Below, in pieces: positions 2,896 through 62,793 of a DNA stretch of 64,000 nt. The stretch is from Chrysoperla carnea (lineage: Eukaryota; Arthropoda; Insecta; Neuroptera; Chrysopidae): positions 105,146,368 through 105,210,367 of the forward strand of contig NC_058337.1 in NCBI RefSeq assembly GCF_905475395.1, in the 5' to 3' direction. Below the pieces are notes generated by a model. That model saw only the letters and a list, made by a program, of their open reading frames with translations, made no database searches and had not been told where the DNA came from. The position numbers and the translations under genes were made by a program. Each line of letters opens with the position of its first letter. Within the stretch, counting starts at the first letter, position 1.

Positions 2896-4000
2896 TACTA
2901 TTAATATTTCAAGTTGACATTATTAAAATAATAAAGATAAGCTTATCGATCGTTTACTCTCGTAATCCTAGTAAAGATAGTAGGACAAAGTTATTAAATT
3001 ATTGTTTTGTGATATACTCTTGATAAGAGTGCAAATTTTCAAATCAATCGGTTGCTTAAAAGTTGGGAAAAAATTAAGTTGAAAGATTTAGGGAAAGTTT
3101 GAAGATTTGAATTTAACAATATTTCTGTATCATATGTAGGAGTGCAGATATTCTCAACTTTTTTAAGGCCAGCCTTTAATAATTCTGCGAGAATGCTACT
3201 TAAAATAAAACACAGCATGCAGATAGAAAGATTGTATCGTTGATTTTTTAACGAGTTTCAACTAGTTATGTTATATTATACTCACATTGAAAAGTATATG
3301 GGTCTTATAAAAGAACTCAATAAAATTATATTCATATATCATATGAAGATGTACATTCTTGTTTAGAATGCTGTACCAAGAAAATTGTGCGAATGGGAAG
3401 CATGTTTTAATTCCAAATTTAAAAAAAAATTAAATTTAAGTCCAAAGTTCCCTCCCATTTAGAAATTTATCAAATTTTATATATGAAAATCATATATTTG
3501 ATACGGATATAAAACGCAAATCAAATTGTAGAGACCTTTTCCTTGAATCAAATGGTCTTTTCTATTGCTATAGTAACACATCAAATGTTAGACTATATTA
3601 GAGTATTTTAGAACCAATCTTGAAGTTGATTTTTTACCCCTAAAACGTGTACCCTAAGATTTTAAAAGGGCCACGGATAACAAAGTTATGTACATTTAAT
3701 ATTACCTATAAGTATAACGAAACAAAAACTATAATGTGTTTTTTCTGTTTAGTGTGTATAAGTATGGTGGAAACGCAATTAAATTATGCAACATATCGGT
3801 TATCACTAAGTAATATGTATTTATAAGCGCTTCCACCATATTTATTAAATTAACTTATTCCATTTTATAAAAATATCGAATTGAATTTTTACTTTATTAT
3901 ATTATAAATATAATAAAGTATTGCGATCGAAAACAAAATCGATATCGGGGTTTCAACGGAAATACACGTTTTGAGGGTCCCTGATTCCAAAAAAGTGGTT
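2896..4000. other. Non-genic AT-rich DNA
   Basis: No gene or recognisable element was seen. Confidence 0.45.
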
Positions 4001-4004
4001 ATTA

Positions 4005-4330
4005 AAAATGTTGCTTCCGTCGGTATGTCGGTCTGTCTGTTACCAAGCTGGAGCCTTCAATTTTCAACCGATTTTTCTCAAACTCGGTACATAGGTTCAG
4101 TTTGGTCATAATTCCAGACGAATTTTTCATTATTTCTCTAGGTCTTTTTTCAAGGGTACTTTCCTCTAGGCCAAAACAGGATATTTGGGGTTTTCTCAAA
4201 AACGGCTCTAACGATTTCGATTAAACTTGACACAAGGCTAGACCTTAAAGTGTTCCTAGAATTGGTATAAGCCACATATCCGGGAAAATTTGAGAAGGCC
4301 CACACATTAGGGAAAACCTTTCCAAATACA
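4005..4330. repeat. Interspersed-repeat relic
   Basis: The stretch combines a CGGTCTGTCTGTTACC-type run with phrases such as CTCAAAAACGGCTCTAACGATTTCGATTAAACTTG. This style of sequence is typical of insect retroelement tails and is less AT-rich than the flanks. A run of 12 C follows at 4426-4437. The minus-strand open frame inside has no family resemblance, so I do not call a gene. Confidence 0.35.
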
Positions 4331-7145
4331 GGGAAATGGGATTTTCTAGGGAGAGGCTGAGGGGACAGCAGTGAAACTTTTGCGTTTATATCAACAAGGT
4401 CTTAGGTTTAATATAACTCCCAGAGCCCCCCCCCCCCGAGCCGTGGAGCTACGTTCGAAATTGCATATAAATTTAGTTTAATTTAAATGATTTTTCGCTC
4501 CAATTATAAATATTATGCCCATTTGCCTAAATCATAAAACATTTTTTAGAACCCTATTCGATAAAGTCTCGTTTAGTGTTTAAATCTTTTAAATTCTTTT
4601 TTCATCTATATTTTTTTAACTACTTGACAATAGATTATAGTTTTCATACCGTACAGATTTTAATTTTATAATTATTATACAGAAAATCGATTCTTACACA
4701 AATGTCAACAAACTAGAATAGCTTTTAAAAGAAGAATGCTTTATCAGTGACTACTAGTATGTCTGGTATTTCTTAGTTTATTTTATGCATGTATTTTTAT
4801 ATACGTGTGCATACTTTGAATTACAAGCTATGGAAGATTTTCTAAGTTAAATATTTCTCTTCATTGTTTTTCAAGCGATAATTTATCAATAAATATCCAA
4901 ATTTCGAAGAAATGAATCGTCTGACATCAAGTCGTTAGTGAAGGTATATTAAGCTCAATTCACTAACATGAATTCGCTGCTGTAGTAAAAAGTTGTAACT
5001 TTTGCAGCAACATTCTGGGTGATGCTTTAAATCAAAAAGTAGTTAGATCATGTCATAAATTGATATAGAAAAGTGTTGTGCATAATGTTATTGAAAAATT
5101 TCTGGCAAAAAAGTTGGGAATGATTTGCTTTGACTAGAATTTATTCTCAGGCAGAATCTATGTCTATGTCAGGCAGAAAGTGTTCAAAATGGGGAAAAAA
5201 CTATAGAAGACTTTATGTAATAGAATTTTCGATTTGTCAACTCTTATCAACTTTGCATTTAATATTAACTTATCCAACTAAATTAAGCTCCAATTTCAAG
5301 TCATTAAACATTTTGTTTTATAAAATCATTTATTTGCTATGTGAATCATCAATTTCGCTGATTATTACTCATTACTCCGTAGAAAGAAAAAGAAGGAGAT
5401 AAATTTAAAAGACCAAAAGCAATTTTCTTTTAGTATAAACTTTGATTTTTCTTTTTATTTCACATAAAATACAAATTCTGATTTTTAAGAGTTATCTAAT
5501 TTTTTTGCTAAGATTTAAACTTTCAAGTGCTTCGCGGCTTCCGAATTTTCAAATCAGGGTTGGATTTAAGAAGGAGCAACAGGGGCTGAATTTCCAAGGC
5601 CTCTACAAAGGACTGGCTACTACAAGAGTTTGTAAAAGCTATCCGTACCAAACATTGAACGTGATTTTTTACTTCGGGAGCTGGATTTTACCGAAACCAT
5701 TTGTGATTTTTAGACGAAAAATTGTTGACAGGATTGTGCTTATCTTATAATAAATAATTGAAACACTTTAAATAATGAAAATTGCTTATCTTGTTTGAAA
5801 AATAATTAGAGGCCTTCGACTTTTTTGTCGCCCTAGCGCCCTCACATCGTTCAATCCGGTCCTGTATCAAATACAAGGATAGTGTGGGAAATATTTACAA
5901 AAATGTACACCAGATAATAAAGGAGGGAGTTGGCATGAACCGAGCGTCCCAAAAACTCAAATTTGAGCATAGTTACGATCCCTGATCATGAAAAATAAAT
6001 TACATTAGAAAATATAATTTAGTTTTGTATCAAACATATATTCTTTAAATAATTTATGGACCTTAGATTAAAAACTTAACAACACATTTTAAAAGTTTCA
6101 AAAAAATAATCAAAAAATAGAAATAATGTAAGAAAGAAAAGTAAATAAATACGATAAATTACCATGCAAAATAATCTCTAATAAGTTGATACTTTTTCAT
6201 TTTACAAATGAATAATAAATAATACAAAATGCTTTCATATTTAAATAAACAAAGAAAGTAATTTAGACACATTATCATTACAAATAAATTACTTCATTTT
6301 TATCCAAACAATTTAAGTCAAGTTCATTCCAATACATATAAAATACAATCAAATATTTATAAAAACAAATTGACATTAAACATTAACAATAACATCATTT
6401 CAATTTTACAAATAAAAACAAAAATCATTTATACCTAATGATTGAACTACCATACAAATAATTATATAAAAAAAACACGACTAGCCTTAATTACTGTAAA
6501 AAAAATAAACAATAGAGTGCATTAAACTAATAAAATATCGATTTGTATTTATCAACAACAATAAATAATAATTTGGTTAATAACTTTAATAACAACAGAA
6601 AAACTTCAATCATAATAATTACATACCGTTTTGAAGTAATTCATGAAATCATTATTTATTTTTTTTACAAAAACACTGTTTAATAATCACTCTTTTCTCT
6701 AATGACTTTTTTTTTAATGAAAAATATCTTATTATATAATTTATTTTGTACCTTTTAGTTAAATAATTACGTAGATTATTATTTGTATTTTTTTGCGTTA
6801 CAAATGAATAGTAGAGAGAACATTTACACAAGTGGTAACCTTAATAAAAACAAGGTGCTGAAATGTTAAACGTGTGAGTTTTATAACCAGTGGATACGCC
6901 CTCAATATGATATTGTTGTTATATTGTAAATAATACACTACTGTACCAAAAAAAAAATTGTATTGTTGAATGTTGAACAATGTTAAAGTGATATTTTATA
7001 AGTTTTATGCAATATGTATCACAGTAATGCTATGCAAGTTGCATAGCGTACGCAGATAAATACATACTAATATTTTTGAATTGAAGTACTTTATAACAAC
7101 GGTACAGCGTTGTATTAAATATATAACCATAACAAGAGTTTTCTA
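4331..7145. other. Non-genic AT-rich DNA
   Basis: There are several short open frames (for example 5442-5750), but their composition is low-complexity and no motif is recognisable. 6000-7000 is extremely A/T-rich. Confidence 0.45.
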
Positions 7146-7149
7146 TTAA

Positions 7150-7478
7150 GAGTGTCCGAACTTTGTAGGTGCTTAAATTAAACAAGTTATATATGGCATA
7201 TTTTTTATTATTATTTTTAATTGGAAAGAGTATTTCATGCCATTTTGTGTGATGAACCGCAGCTTCAGTGATTCAATCACATAGATCTGTGTCGATATCA
7301 TTCTTGACAGTTGTTCGTGCTTACTTTCGAGTACACTGTTGCATGATGATTTTTCCAATATTGATTATATCGGTCTGCCCAGCGAACTTGGTGTCGGTAT
7401 TTGATAAAATATATCGCACAAATTGGCATGAAATGCGTATTCATACACAACTTGTTTCAGTTCAAAAATCGAGCACTC
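7150..7478. mobile_element. TTAA-flanked MITE-like element
   Basis: The left end GAGTGTCCGAACTTTG and the reverse complement of the right end, GAGTGCTCGATTTTTG, agree at 12 of 16 positions. Both ends are bordered by TTAA (7146-7149 and 7479-7482). TTAA target duplication is typical of piggyBac-type elements, but the tetramer is common in AT-rich DNA. The open frames inside, on both strands, resemble no transposase I know. Confidence 0.4.
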
Positions 7479-7482
7479 TTAA

Positions 7483-8040
7483 TGGTACGGTGTTTCTATT
7501 TCTATAAATTGAATCGAAGAAAGTGAAAGTATTTGAGATCCTATGATTATTTAACATTAACGTTTTTTGTACTGAGTAGTACCACTTGTCTCGAATCCAA
7601 ACCGATTCTGGTAATTATTTTTCTTTGTTAAAATGTAATTCTATCATTATAATGTAATGAACTTTTATCATGAAGTGTAGTTAAAATATATGGATGGTTT
7701 TCTTCTAACGGTAAGAATGGTATCGTTGAAAATGAATCGATATTATTATATGGTTAGAAACTCATGAGATTATTCATATCGAAATAATTCTATCGAACAC
7801 ATGTATGCATATTAGTATATTAAATGCGACTTAGAAAATGTTATTGTTATTAAAAAGGTTTTTTTTTTCTTTTCTTTTTTTAATTATACCTTTTTACTGT
7901 GCTTTTTTTTAGCTCTTACGTTTTTCTACTAGAAGTTTCATCAAAATAGGTATATTTATATATCTTTTTTGTGTAATAGCGAACTTGAAATATTTTTTCA
8001 AATTCACTTCAAACCTTAGATAAATTTTTTGGACTATAAA
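7483..8040. other. Non-genic AT-rich DNA
   Basis: Nothing recognisable; poly-T tracts around 7860-7910. Confidence 0.45.
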
Positions 8041-8175
8041 AACGCATTTCGATTACAATGTAGTCATCATCAGTAGAATCCTAATTATTCTCTACGTGTA
8101 ACATACTAGGAGAATAATTACTATTTTTTAATTTATAATAATAATGACTAAATTGTAGTCGAAATATGTATTAAT
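8041..8175. repeat. Imperfect palindrome with hammerhead-like core
   Basis: Arms at about 8044-8070 and 8141-8169 pair imperfectly (CATTTCGATTACAATGTAGTC against GACTAAATTGTAGTCGAAATATG). On the minus strand the left arm reads CTGATGA (8067-8073), then a short stem, then CGAAA (8047-8051). That is the order of the conserved hammerhead ribozyme core. A complete three-stem ribozyme is not evident. Confidence 0.4.
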
Positions 8176-8642
8176 ATTACAAAAAATATAATCTTCATTC
8201 AAAAGATAATATCATTTTAGTATTGAGATTTTATAATAAAAGAGGCAGAGAAATAGAGGAACAATGAGACAGAAAGAAAGAGATCTAAATACCATGGCCG
8301 TACACACGGCAGTTTATTTTGTTACCAAACTTCTTTTGAATTTACTGTTTTTATTCAAGGAGTCACAAAATTTTAGAGAATAAAGAACTTATATTTCGTG
8401 TTTTAAAGACATTTATTCTTTTTTAAGTTTTTTAAATTTAAGATAAATTTAAGTAAAAATTTTACCTCGCCCGACGCGAGGCTTGTCCACATTCTACCTA
8501 GGCTGAGGTCGATTCGAGGCGAGGTCATACCAAAATACACTATGCTTGAACGACTAATATTCCAGTATATGGCACGAAAAAACATCCATGATCCCTCACT
8601 TTTTACCGCGTGGTATATATGCACCACATCGATTCATCGATT

Positions 8643-8945
8643 TATTTTCGAGATAGAAGGGAAGGTGGATATAAAATGAGTAAAAACTGTAAAAAATTTC
8701 TGAACCTTTTTCCAATAATCTCCTTAATGATCGCACAAACGTTACATACTGCAGACAGACATTTCCTCCTCTCTTTCCTCCCAAACAATAAATGGTGGGA
8801 TGCTTTGATTGATATTAGCCGGTAAGGAAAGTTCGCTAGCATTACGTAACATTTGTGTGGTCGTTAGGGAACTTATTTGGCAAGGAGTAAAAACTTTTTT
8901 AATTTTTACTTATTTTATTACTCCTTTCCCCTCGATCTCGGAAAT
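8643..8945. repeat. Imperfect ~300-bp palindrome
   Basis: The left arm (8643-8757) and the right arm (8830-8945) are imperfect reverse complements. For example, CGCACAAACGTTACATACTG pairs with the complement of CATTACGTAACATTTGTGTG, and CGAGATAGAAGGGAAGG with the complement of CCTTTCCCCTCGATCTCGG. The palindrome explains the overlapping open frames on both strands. It is likely a foldback MITE. Confidence 0.55.
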
Positions 8946-10119
8946 GACCGCTCTGCCTAAGCAAAAAAATTCTCCAAATCGTCTCAGAAGCTTATTTACC
9001 ACTGGGCAGAAAGTTAGGGTTCATGGATTTCTTACGTGCTATGTCCTAGAATATAAGTGTTTTCTTATAAAAAAAATATAACTTTTCAATTAAATTACTT
9101 TAGATTAACATTATAAAAGAATGTTATTAATATGACTCAATTATTATTATACAAGTCTGTCTCGTTATATTGGCTGGCGTCGCATCTACTCTGATTACAT
9201 AAAAGCTTTCGTTTACCATATGCGACCGCTGCGGGTTGGTATTATATTTCCTAGACGATAATAAACTATAGATATGTATTGGAATTGAATTGTAAACACA
9301 AAAAATTCAATAAAAATGTTTTTCAATTTATCTAAACAAAATTCTAGTTAGAAAATAAGAAACTAAATTTATTCTTTAAAGAGACTGTTGTATATGCAGG
9401 TTGTGTCGTAAGTCACGCTACATCTTCAGGCAATGGATTCATGGGGTCAAAATAAGCCAAAATAAATTGAAATTATTTATTTGAGCTTGTTTTAAAGAAC
9501 AAAATAAAAAAAAGCAAAAATAGTTTCAAATGTAATTTAGTTTTAATGCAAACAGTTGAAAAATTGAGAGCCGCACAGTTGCTTCAATTTTTTTTTTGTT
9601 GGTACATATTCATACATCAATGAAATAATAATTCTTAAATATATTTAGGTAATATTTTTTAAATTAATAATTTCATTTTTTTAGTAATAATTATTAATAA
9701 AAAATACTTATGTTTTTGTATAAAAAAAAGCGAGTTGTTTTTGGTTGTGTCTCCACCAATCGGAATCACGATAAAAAAAAGGTCTTGTAGAAAAACCAGA
9801 GGTTTAAGGTTCAAGGTACATGATTCGCTAGAGAATGAATGTTAGACGAAGAAAACTCTTCAAAATTTCCTACTATATGATATAAAAAACCAATCTCTTG
9901 TAAATAATGGTACTTTTATAAGTCTTTATCAAAGACAAAAAAAAAATTACATTTTAGCGAATTTCCGAAGAAAATGGAGCTATTTTTACTTTTGTACTGA
10001 TGATGGAATTTTGAAAAAATTTCTTCAAATGATATTCGATCCTACATAACCGATGTCAAAAATGACCATCGTTAAAATTTATATATTTGTATATACATAC
10101 AGTGTGTTCATTTATACAA
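8946..10119. other. Non-genic AT-rich DNA
   Basis: No gene or known element was recognised. Confidence 0.45.
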
Positions 10120-56490: not shown

Positions 56491-58397
56491 CGCAATATAA
56501 AATAATTGTGTGTATTTTAAATATGATCTGACGATTCGAAGACGTAGTATTGTACCCTTATCTTTACTTCGTTAGTTAAATATGGTGAATATTTTGGTAA
56601 AAACAATACATTCAAAGGTATTTGATTATATTTTGAGCTTTCAAAAGAAATAAAGGACTGCACAAGATAAGAAAGGAAAATGGCTTTCTGTGAATTTTTT
56701 TTTCACCCACCCTAAAATGTTCTTTGAATCATTCTGATCAAAAGGTCTCACGGCCACAAAAGTTTTTGTATTGTAGTTTTTTACAGACGGTCAAATTTGC
56801 GAATATACTTTTAGCATATGACATAGAAAATGGCATTATGTGAAATTTTTTCAAACCGCCTGCAAAATTTTCTTTGGATCGTTCTGATCAAAAACTCTCT
56901 CGGAAACATAATTTTCAATGGGTAGTTTTCGACTTTCATTTGAAAAAATGAAATTGTCCACCATTTAATCCAGTATTATTGAAAAAGGATAGATTACGGG
57001 GATTTAAACAGTAAAAAAAGTGAATTATTGCCAATGGGCGCCACCTTTGATAACTAAGACTAAACAATTAACAATACTTATAAACTTAGGCATGTGCAAG
57101 ATTTCACAGAAATTTGCATGGGTCAGTGTGATTTTTTTGATTTATTTACGGAGGCAAGTAAAACAAACTGAAATTTTTACCAATAAAAGTAATGAGTAAG
57201 TGAATTTGGGCTAAAGCTGGTGTTTGCTAGTATGGCACTAAATTGGGAGTGCTTATTTACCACTGATGATCGCTTCTAATATTTTTTACAATCTCTAACG
57301 GGCCTTCGCAATTATCTAACGCAAAACCTTGCAATAAGTACGAAAGGGTCATTGTATAAACTGGCAATCAGAAAAGAACAATATCAAAACCTTTCTATAA
57401 TGACGGTAAACTGTGTTAGATTGATATTATCGTGTTTTGACTTAAATTGTCAAAGTAACGATACAATAAAATTGATTAAAAAACTGAAAAAAACGCCAAC
57501 TAATATCGATAATTGGTTTTTAAATATTTGATTCACTTAAAAATATTATTTTTTTACAAGTACTAGGTGCGTGTAAAACTAAATATTAATATTTGACTTA
57601 GTTGTTGAATATAATAGTGGTTGATTTGGGAGTGTCGTCATGCATTGCTACCTTTTTCTTGGTAGGTGCATGTCATTCAGGAGTATATAGTAGCAGATGT
57701 GTAGCACTGGTTTTACGTTTAGCAACCCCATAAAATCAAATGCACTAAATAAATGCGTTCATATAATATGAACTACTAACTAATTCAGCCACCATTCTAC
57801 CCTTTTGTAGTATAAAAATAATGTGTCACACTGAATGGGGATATTTCATTTGATTTATATCACTTTTTTTTTCGTTATGTGTTCGAAATCGGTCGTTTGA
57901 TATTTACAATATATACCGTTTGTTAACTCATTATTTAAGAAACAAATACACGGTTTTTAAAAAGCTACTACTCGTTAGTATTTGATGAAATAATTTGATT
58001 TATCCGAATAAGTTTACCAGAAATTGTTTGCAACTTTCTGCCTATAATAATTTTGTTATTTGTTGAAAATAATCATTTTTTATGTTTTCAGCCAAGGTCA
58101 AAAAGTAAGTTTTGTTGGCCTTAAAAATCATTCCTGCATAATTGAGTGCCAAATTCTATGTTGTGAAGGAAACGCAAAGCTTTAGATTTGATTGAAAAAT
58201 TTTCTTGGTAAAATATCGTTTCTACATTGCCTTGTCTCGAAACCCTATCTTTGACCGTTCAATCTTTTATTATTCGTATTTGAGGATTTAATTGAAAATT
58301 TTCCACATTTTTGGTTTCGATACCGAGAATTGATTCTGACTCTCTTGAGTTCAATAAATATACCATTTAAAAATAAAAGCTTGTTAACTGCTTATAT
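56491..58397. other. Non-genic AT-rich DNA
   Basis: 56690-56960 contains two similar modules (GAAAATGGCTTTCTGTGAA / GAAAATGGCATTATGTGAA, each followed by TTCTGATCAAAA), an old duplication about 130 bp apart. No gene was seen. Confidence 0.45.
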
Positions 58398-59000
58398 GCT
58401 AAGAGCCCGCCGCTGAAAAAGGCACCTCATCGGTTAAAGGACATACATTATTGGAAAAGGTAGTACTCAAATCAATGAAAATAATGATATAGGAGTTTTA
58501 GTCCCCAGTCAGTCGCTTAACTAGGCAACCATTTTTTGATTTTTTTAATTTTGGTGTAGTTGCTTACCCTATTAGTTAAAGCATAATTTTGGTATCAAAT
58601 GAAAGCTTGAACTTTCTAGTTTTCGAAAAAAAATGGTTGCCTAGCCTCTGACTGTTAGAAATTTTGGCAGCCCACTTTAAAGACCGGCAACTCGAGTGTA
58701 TACTATGAGATACTACATAAGCAACTCTGTGAGAACATTATACTTCAATTTATTTATTTCCCATCACATTTTATCAACTTTTTTTTTATATTTTAAATAT
58801 TTATGAAATAAATAATAAAATTGTTTTCACAATTAAATTTTTTTTTTAATTATTAAATACATAATGGAAACGTAGTTAAAACATAGAAAATATAATTAAA
58901 ACATAGGAAATGAATTAGAGAAAAGAATATATTTTAAAACAAACTATTTTTAAAAATATATTTTTAAATTTTAATATTCGTTAATTTTTTAAATATTTTT

Positions 59001-59420
59001 ATACCATGCATATATGAAATATACATAGTATATTAAGTTTAGTCCCAAGTTTGTAACGCTTAAAAATAATGATGCTAGGAAAAAAATTTTGTCATAGCTG
59101 TTCATAAAATCACCTAATTAGTCCATTTCCAGTTGTCCGTCTGTGGACACGATAACTCAAAAACGAAAAAAAAAGATATCGAGCTGAAATTTTTACAGCG
59201 TACTCACGTAAAAAGTGAGGTCAAGTTCGTAAATGAGCATCATAGGTCAATTGGGTCTTGGGTCCGTAGGACCCATCTTGTAAACCGTTAGAGATAGAAC
59301 AACAGTTTAAATGTAAAAAATGTTCCTTATAAAAAAATAAAAACTTTTGTTTGAAACATTTTTTTGTAAACATTACTGTTTACCCACGAGGGTGTTAATT
59401 AGGTACAAATTTTATAGTAT
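59001..59420 (+). repeat. Interspersed repeat R1, copy inside the foldback element
   Basis: It starts ATACCATGCATATATGAAAT and ends near CATTACTGTTTACCCACGAG, with the same blocks as 55156-55590 in between. It sits in the spacer of the long inverted repeat, so either it inserted there or it travels with that element. Confidence 0.8.
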
Positions 59421-59607
59421 GTATTAATTAATATAGGAATATCAGTTGTGTGTGTGTCTATTTAAAAGTGAACATCTTTTGTTATTTACGTGACGTCAAA
59501 AAAAAACAAACGATATACTTTGATTTTTGGAGTGTAAGTTTTTATTTTATTTTTTTATTTTATTAAAACTGGTGGAGTGTAAGTTGTGTTGTGGAAATAA
59601 TATCACT

Positions 59608-59739
59608 ATGAAGTTGTGTTTTGTGTGCGGTAAATCTGAAGGTTTTGTTAATATTTTCGATGCAGAAACTTTAGAAAAATGCACTCGTATGAGTCGTTTT
59701 CGAAAAATTAAGAAGCACAAACATTGGGAAGTTGTTTAA
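59608..59739 (+). CDS. Truncated N-terminal fragment of a TE-type Cys protein
   Basis: The frame from the ATG encodes 43 residues. It has a C-x2-C pair (LCFVCGK), then IFDAETLEKC and RFRKIKKHKHWEVV. From memory, C-x2-C followed by F-x-E-T-x-x-K-C and an R-rich segment opens a group of uncharacterised insect proteins, many linked to transposons. Those proteins are far longer. Here the stop codon lies only 5 bp before the right inverted arm, as if the arm cut the gene off. The frame could be a first exon, but no donor site is obvious. Confidence 0.35.
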   Translation: MKLCFVCGKSEGFVNIFDAETLEKCTRMSRFRKIKKHKHWEVV

Positions 59740-60243
59740 TTGAATATTTTCTATGTTTTAACTACGTTTCCATTATGTATTTAATAATTTAAAAAAAAAA
59801 TTAATTGTGAAAACAATTAATTTTATTATTTATTTCATAAATATTTAAAATATAAAAAAAAAGTTGATAAAATGTGATGGGAAATAAATAAATTGAAGTA
59901 TAATGTTCTCACAGAGTTGCTTATGTAGTATCTCATAGTATACACTCGAGTTGCCGGTCTTTAAAGTGGGCTGCCAAAATTTCTAACAGTCAGAGGCTAG
60001 GCAACCATTTTTTTTCGAAAACTAGAAAGTTCAAGCTTTCATTTGATACCAAAATTATGCTTTAACTAATAGGGTAAGCAACTACACCAAAATTAAAAAA
60101 ATCAAAAAATGGTTGCCTAGTTAAGCGACTGACTGGGGACTAAAACTCCTATATCATTATTTTCATTGATTTGAGTACTACCTTTTCCAATAATGTATGT
60201 CCTTTAACCGATGAGGTGCCTTTTTCAGCGGCGGGCTCTTAGC

Positions 60244-62793
60244 CTATTAGTATAGAAAGTTATTGTAATGGGCCCGATTTCCGAAATCGAAGTTTTCAAC
60301 ATAAGCTTTAACACCAATTTGAATAAGAAAATTTGGAGATCATACACCAATTTGTATGTGTAGGTGTGTTGTGGGTGCACTTACGTACGTTCGTGGTAAT
60401 TTTTTTCGTCGTTGATATCGCGCGAAGAAACAGTAACATTGACTTTGTTAAGTTGTCGATCGAAGCGTATTAACAGATATAAGATCCGAAAGGAATCTTA
60501 TTTCTAAATAGGAACTATATTTTATGCTGGTAAGTTATTTGTGCGAACCTCAAAGGTCGCACCAGACCCTAACCACGGCTTGTTATTTATTAACTTCTAT
60601 CAAATTAACAAAATTTGAAAAGGAGGCAAATTGTGAATTGTGATTGCTGTTACCAACTGTGTTCGTGAAATATCCAGTAAAATGAAGGTTGATAATCGAT
60701 TATCCTTTGCAAGTATGTTTATATCTAAAACATGCCAAATATCACGTTTATATTCAATAAAAAATTTTCACCGGACCAACCTGTGATAGTTTTCGGCGGT
60801 TCAAACAATTAAGTTCACATGAGGCCACTGTGATAACGACAGCAATCTCATTTCATTTTCAATTTATTCTTCAATTGTCAATTTACTCAGCTAGAGCTGC
60901 AATCATGATTTTAAGACTCCTTGTAATTACATGAATACATTATATAAAATGTCACTTATGGCCATAGTTAATTTTTGAATATTCAATGTTATTGTCGTAA
61001 TAATTTACTAACTTAGTGTGGTTATTTAACAATTGCTAGTTAATTTTCGAATTACTTTATAACAGCATGCACACTTTTTCGTTTAAAATAAGGCGAAAGC
61101 TATTTACCTTATTTCCTTTCAAAGAAAAGAAAGATAGAAGAATAGAAAAAAATGAATGGAGAAACAAATAAAACGTTGTTCACTTGAGGCTCAAGTCTTG
61201 AGCCCTGAAAGGACATAAAATTCGTCACCTAGATAATCTTATTTCTTTTTATTTCCTTTGGGATAGTAATATTTTTTTGTTATGTCTAACAATTTGATAA
61301 TATAATAAGATATTACCGGAACTAACAACCATAAAAATGTATAGAAAAGTCCTTATTTGTTCTGTTGTTGAATAACGAGAAAAATTACCCGTTGAAAAAT
61401 CAACGATACAATTAAAACAGGTATACCATACGGAAGAAAACCCAATTTTGGCTTTTTGTTTTGTGTATTCGAGCGAAATAAAATGACAATTATTCTTGAA
61501 ATTTATTCAATAATCAAAATTAAGTAGACTTAGACTTGTCTTTTGTTCTAATATATACTTTTATTCTTTAATAAAGTCTCGATTATTTTTCGAGCTCGAA
61601 TAATGCGTATTTATAAACGTGCCAAAAATCATAGCGGGAAAAACAAGTGGTATTGCGACATCTGCATATAGTATGAGGCTTAAGTCCATAACGTCGAGTT
61701 GAATGAACTATTTACTAATGTAAGTTGCACCAAAGTTTTTATACCATACAGTATTGTAAATAACGCCATAGTTTTGGATCTTACGGCAATATTATATAGA
61801 GTATTATCAGATACTTTTTGAGTGCCTGTCTCTATACTATACCAGCATTTTAATAAACATCATGCATTTCTTAACGCGTTCTTCCAATAAGAAAATATCA
61901 AATATTCAGTCGTCAAAAATAAACTTCTTCGTAACGTTGTTAGTAGCTCCACTATATTTTCCATGGTCTCTTACATGAAAAATGATTCAAACTTTTAGGT
62001 AGTGCCATTTGAATTTTTACATTTATACATAAAATTGTTTCTTATTCAGGAGGGTTACCTATAGTTACTACCATGTTTCATGTCAACAATAGCAGGCTAC
62101 ATACAGACACTTGTTTATTGATAACATTTAGTATTATTTAATAACAATTCAAATTATTATTATACAATAATGATTGCGTGACCGTTATGCTATTAAAAAT
62201 ACAAGACTACACCATATTAAAAATATAATATTCTAATAATATGCACATATTAAATATGTACCAATGTAATATGTACACATGGTAATTAACTTCGATTTAA
62301 TACACACTTGAACTTACAATATTACATCAGTTATGTAATTTTGTAATAAAAACATGTGCAGTGTTTGTTTTAACTTTTTGTTTCGTCTAGCTGTCTCGTC
62401 GGGTGTATTTTTTAACCGCACCGAAGAACTGATTATAAAGATCAAAGTGTAAGGACTACATTCGGAAAATATATAGTGCATACAATTTTAAATAGAAATA
62501 ATGTTTGTTTAGTCTGTGTACCATAAACGAGATAAGTATAAATTTCGATACGAACGCCGCGCTGGCATGGTTCTCGTTTGAATTTCAGATATTTCTTTCC
62601 TAATTGAACTTATGGATGAAATATATGTGTCGCTACAGAGAGCCTAAACGTTAACCAACGCTATATACCCTAATAAAGTAAATGAATTTAAGTCGAAAGA
62701 ATTAAAATTGTATTATTTTATTATCAAACTAAACCATATTAATATTAGAGCCACATTATGGATATTTATATTTCTCGAAAATGATTGCCCTGC
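60244..62793. other. Non-genic DNA
   Basis: 60290-60720 is less AT-rich than its surroundings (for example GATATCGCGCGAAG, AACCTCAAAGGTCGCACC) and may be old retroelement DNA, but it has no open frame. The rest is AT-rich with nothing recognised. Confidence 0.4.

Follow-up and report, generated by a model that had tools for sequence, protein, structure and literature searches.

A non-autonomous DNA transposon copy with long inverted arms in Chrysoperla carnea, most likely of the AcademX lineage

The window, a stretch of 64,000 nucleotides from Chrysoperla carnea contig NC_058337.1, contains a 1852-bp element (58395-60246) with the trinucleotide TTA at either side (Table 1). Local self-alignment pairs its two ends, about 506 and 512 nt long, in inverted orientation; the best local alignment is 98.2% identical over 512 columns, gaps counted. 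Over 504 aligned sites the arms show 3 substitutions; in addition there are two indels, one of them of 4 nt. Counting from the tips, the arms mismatch at position 3 and then first at position 429, and the 425 identical bases between these sites form a run far beyond chance. A sequence-only reading of the locus had recognised two inverted, near-identical arms of about 500 bp and proposed their self-alignment; the alignment, once run, bore the observation out. The arms are indeed set apart, by 834 nt rather than by the 850 bp then given, and the element had been placed correctly, its true limits lying 3 bases further out at each end.

Each arm harbors an inner inverted repeat (CTAGGCAACCATTTTTT), located at 58521-58537 and 58627-58644 in the left arm and likewise in the right arm. 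The left 10-base core of this repeat is present in 28 of the 31 arms examined and the right core in 21 of the 31, some arms being too short to contain the core. Outside the element, the first 350 nt or so of the right flank correspond to an old repeat that matches many genomic sites at 66-88% identity, as expected from the earlier description of the surrounding repeats as decayed. That description does not extend to the left flank, whose sole genome match is its own locus.

Table 1. Coordinates of the features making up the element and its borders (positions in the window).
Feature	Position	Strand	Basis
Left target site duplication, TTA	58392..58394	.	same as 60247-60249
Left terminal inverted repeat, starts TATGCTAAGAGCCCGCCGCTG	58395..58900	+	self-alignment; dispersed in genome
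Subterminal stretch, 94 nt, part of longer arms elsewhere	58901..58994	+	copy comparison
Nested 520-bp repeat, abundant in the genome	58995..59514	+	genome search
Piece of transposase gene 5' exon	59573..59734	+	98.8% over 162 nt to L013/L029, L019
Right terminal inverted repeat, tip TAGGCTAAGAGCCCGCCGCTG on - strand	59735..60246	-	self-alignment
Right target site duplication, TTA	60247..60249	.	flank comparison across copies

The interior is composite. In other copies (L010, L012, L016 and others), the two sides both match the element as far as positions 593-603. The nested 520-bp repeat gave 5884 first-look candidates, 40 of which were scored, the best scored copies being 89-95% identical along its length; a 9.4-kb copy (L019) carries fragments of the repeat at this same junction. 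The exon piece opens with an ATG at 59608 and reads MKLCFVCGKSEGFVNIF... for 43 codons up to a stop at 59737-59739, whereas in L029 and L019 the same frame continues beyond this point. A Pfam search with the exon piece returned weak rows only (best E 0.013, all below the cut-offs), which were taken as chance.

One of these larger relatives is a copy of 9435 bp at C5:66304014-66313448 (L019 plus L020), flanked by an ATA duplication, with arms that pair across about 563 nt and a right arm that is interrupted. It contains a frame of 1398 codons, P0001, that is itself open from stop to stop. A genome search with P0001 matched 61 stretches, several of them in stop-free frames. Because the exon piece is 98.8% identical to the larger, coding copies, the window copy is, on sequence grounds, an internally deleted, non-autonomous relative of them.

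Other members of the family have been interrupted in turn. In L029 (C6:438200-448100), the segment from about 3396 to 9900 is a Maverick/Polinton-like insertion inside a family copy; its frames, as recognised by eye, presumably correspond to a DNA polymerase B and an integrase. In L030 (also on C6), an open frame of 485 codons at positions 2475-3929 matches DUF7869 (E 1e-13) and lies within another interrupted copy. Positions 1-1685 of L029 and 34-1715 of L030 have about 500 nt of flank plus the element in common (98.9%); probably, one is a segmental duplicate of the other or both lie in the same repeat. Paralogous transposase loci were found at C3:8844704 (L041), C3:16662268 (L042), C6:10693549 (L043) and C6:10894912 (L044). 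The paralogue is 52% identical to P0001 across residues 617-1389 in a stop-free frame, and the four loci are 100% identical to L041 across about 5.0 kb, which would reflect either a sister family that moved very recently or a recent copying event.

A search of the 559-Mb genome with the left arm, one of the checks suggested at the outset, identified at least 44 matches at E ≤ 0.001, the number being a minimum because 40 of the 42 candidates were scored. The 20 regions taken represent 19 separate places; both ends could be read at 11 of these and a single end at 8 (L013, L014, L015, L017, L023, L025, L026 and L028). The latter were left out of the counts; the 11 two-ended copies and the window copy form the set of 12 complete copies used below. 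Copy ends start with TAGG(C/T)TAAGAG or a sequence near it, those of L027 being more diverged. With the element boundary placed by eye before the flanks were counted, identical 3-bp flanks were found in 12/12 copies and 4-bp agreement in 0/12. The duplications are TTA in six copies, TAA in three, and TTT, TAT and ATA in one each. When right flanks were shuffled among copies (10,000 shuffles), 3-bp agreement averaged 4.0 copies and never exceeded 10. The family thus shows what is expected of DNA transposons: terminal inverted repeats, a duplication of constant length, and dispersed copies with a coding relative. We regard it as nearly certain that the window element is a copy of a DNA transposon; a transposon had been one of three options in the initial reading, and it is the one sustained by the dispersed copies, their duplications and the piece of transposase gene common to the larger copies. 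The family is a small, low-copy one with long arms, and the window copy is ordinary in kind.

Assignment to a superfamily relied on the duplications and on the coding frame. In the available part of PMC10045372, AcademX is characterised by duplications of 3 or 4 bp and a nuclease and AcademH by duplications of 9 or 10 bp and a helicase; iMITEdb, in the accessible portion of PMC5199201, gives 3 bp for Academ. The AcademX lineage of Academ is credited to Kapitonov and Jurka 2010 and Kojima 2020 in papers that cite them. The 3-bp duplication of all 12 copies fits the length given for AcademX. Three C-terminal motifs, HEEADT, DTD and TG.D, are conserved in P0001 and four paralogues; from their nuclease-like look, we take them to be of the XPG/FEN-like type. 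Duplication and motifs together suggest that the family probably belongs to the AcademX lineage. Comparison of P0001 with Pfam returned no family at E up to 10. Within the P0001 protein family, DUF6589 in one of five paralogues (E 0.0078) was the sole Pfam hint, with no nuclease match, and searches of solved structures found no nuclease either. Two solved-structure matches, to phosphatase regulatory subunits (best E 0.029), were judged to be chance.

Another superfamily with 3-bp duplications, be it PIF/Harbinger, Zator or an unnamed one, is a distinctly less probable source of the family. Harbinger elements also produce 3-bp duplications, with a preference for TWA, and 9 of the 12 duplications described here are TTA or TAA; moreover, the P0001 protein family is without a confirmed domain in Pfam or among solved structures. 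Against this, none of the Pfam transposase models, Harbinger's included, matches P0001 at E up to 10, and the C-terminal motifs look nuclease-like. Harbinger was therefore set aside as fitting the duplication in part and not the protein, in which the Pfam search detected no DDE domain of the Harbinger type.

Likeness to AcademX thus consists in the 3-bp duplication, the terminal inverted repeats and the long coding copies with nuclease-like C-terminal motifs. The window copy differs in lacking nearly all of the gene, and the family in that searches confirmed no nuclease domain; moreover, arms of about 506 nt and palindromic relatives (see below) are absent from Academ descriptions as far as these were accessible. 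The Academ MITEs of iMITEdb are likewise non-autonomous with 3-bp duplications, but average about 470 bp in the accessible portion of PMC5199201, compared to 1852 bp and a gene piece in the window copy. In overall architecture, the family resembles Galileo and other Foldback-like elements of the P superfamily, which have long arms, arm extension and numerous defective copies consisting of two arms with a spacer between them. Galileo arms extend by recruiting internal sequence, and defective copies of this form are known as well (PMC4168063, in part); the long arms contain several transposase binding sites (PMC3688188, in part). Galileo makes 7-bp duplications against 3 bp in the present family, where agreement at 4, 5, 6 or 8 bp was seen in 0/12 copies, unlike the 7 to 8 bp of Galileo and P-type elements; no tandem-repeat structure was noticed in the arms, and as the main frame of the coding copy is without any Pfam match, there is no sign of a P-type protein.

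One complete copy, L009 (C1:83161365-83162884), is the same deletion derivative as the window copy, deleted further and flanked by its own TTA duplication. The two share the same interior and differ by 12 substitutions in 1511 aligned sites. Since L009 occupies another site with a duplication of its own, the deleted form appears to have moved at least once after it arose. Arm comparison gave a suggestive pattern: the window left arm matches the L009 right arm (no difference in 298 sites) and the window right arm the L009 left arm (none in 508 sites, with two indels), whereas the interiors share the same orientation. The arms thus look swapped left to right, a pattern that a flip of the interior or conversion between the arms would produce. 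Most of the signal comes from a single base, position 3, where 3 of the 31 examined arms have T (window left, L009 right and L011 left). A comparison of arms with interior gave p 0.0023 with the exchanged pairing and 0.25 otherwise; being post hoc, it is not relied on.

Neither the window copy nor L009 is a palindrome. Among the 11 complete copies other than the 9.4-kb C5 copy, six (L010, L011, L016, L018, L022 and L024) are palindromic from end to end, each in a single local self-alignment, at 86.5-98.4% identity with gaps counted and 95.9-99.7% with gaps excluded, and with no base between the innermost pairs. L027 is palindromic except for 8 nt at each end (80% identity), and L012 and L021 pair with themselves in several pieces that together cover most of each copy. 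The count was taken from local alignments because global self-alignment forces AT-rich interiors together and thereby inflates identity, reaching 0.78 in the window copy and 0.71 in L009. In L010 and L022, the paired part takes in sequence whose counterpart in L029 separates the arm from the coding exon. Our literature search found no paper joining Academ with XPG or with foldback elements, although such copies may nevertheless have been described.

The two arms of a copy tend to resemble each other more than they resemble the arms of other copies. Mean left-right divergence in 11 copies is 0.0088 within copies versus 0.0203 between copies, and none of 20,000 random pairings of arms gave a value as low as observed, a result obtained equally with 12 and with 9 copies. 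Constraining the tree to group all left arms against all right arms costs 93 log-likelihood units (AU p 1.6e-5, on 5000 resamplings, below the number advised by the program); the old copy L027 was excluded from this topology test only. The arms of one copy are sisters in 9 of 12 copies in a first tree and in 8 of 11 in a second, with branch support of 56 to 97. A signal in the opposite direction comes from raw distances, by which the closest right arm belongs to the same copy for only 3 of 12 left arms, and the window copy and L009 are exceptions to the likeness within copies. Terms on arm conversion or palindromes found no match in the available portion of PMC3573991. These data also qualify the initial description of the element as very young. 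Its arm divergence of 0.6% is low, as claimed, yet ranks fifth lowest among the 12 complete copies, and arm identity may date the last homogenisation of one arm by the other rather than insertion; the claim of youth therefore holds in part.

The near-perfect complementarity of the arms over about 500 nt would also suit a hairpin siRNA locus, whose arms are kept because the transcript yields a long dsRNA cut by Dicer-2, and some relatives, as complete palindromes, would fold more readily still. We consider this very improbable: the sequence is fully explained as that of a transposon whose sister copy lies at another site, a dedicated hairpin siRNA gene is not needed, and a foldable transcript is equally possible for other two-armed copies. 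An assembly error, or a unique chromosomal segment recently duplicated in inverted orientation (the latter another option of the sequence-only reading), would fit the near identity of the arms, but can be dismissed because the inverted copy stops exactly at the 3-bp target duplication, ends of the same kind, each with its own flanks, recur at 11 other complete copies, and the arms carry several differences, the 4-nt indel included.

We therefore give a probability of about 0.85 to the reading of 58395-60246 as a non-autonomous, internally deleted, long-armed DNA transposon, most likely AcademX. Under this model, transposase from a longer copy would have acted in trans, recognising both arms and cutting the element out. 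Insertion at a TTA site through staggered cuts would have generated the 3-bp duplication, and incomplete gap repair after excision could account for the internal deletion. Arm-to-arm gene conversion or fold-back repair might keep the arms of one copy alike. Hairpin RNA could in principle form from any transcript crossing both arms, as a by-product. It is conceivable, if doubtful, that transposition of this AcademX-like family regularly entails copying from arm to arm as a by-product, with a hairpin or flap intermediate that the element's own XPG/FEN-like nuclease would process, so that one end is rewritten from the other. If true, such copying would homogenise arms within copies and repeatedly make whole-element palindromes that move on.

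In conclusion, a striking hairpin-like locus is settled as a defective transposon copy with a sister elsewhere. Likeness of arms within copies and palindromic derivatives are a trait known above all in other superfamilies, from Foldback and Galileo elements; the matching arms and mirror-image copies are unusual features that might merit specialist follow-up. As they could give rise to dsRNA or to rearrangement, copies of this type are worth flagging in the annotation of this genome.
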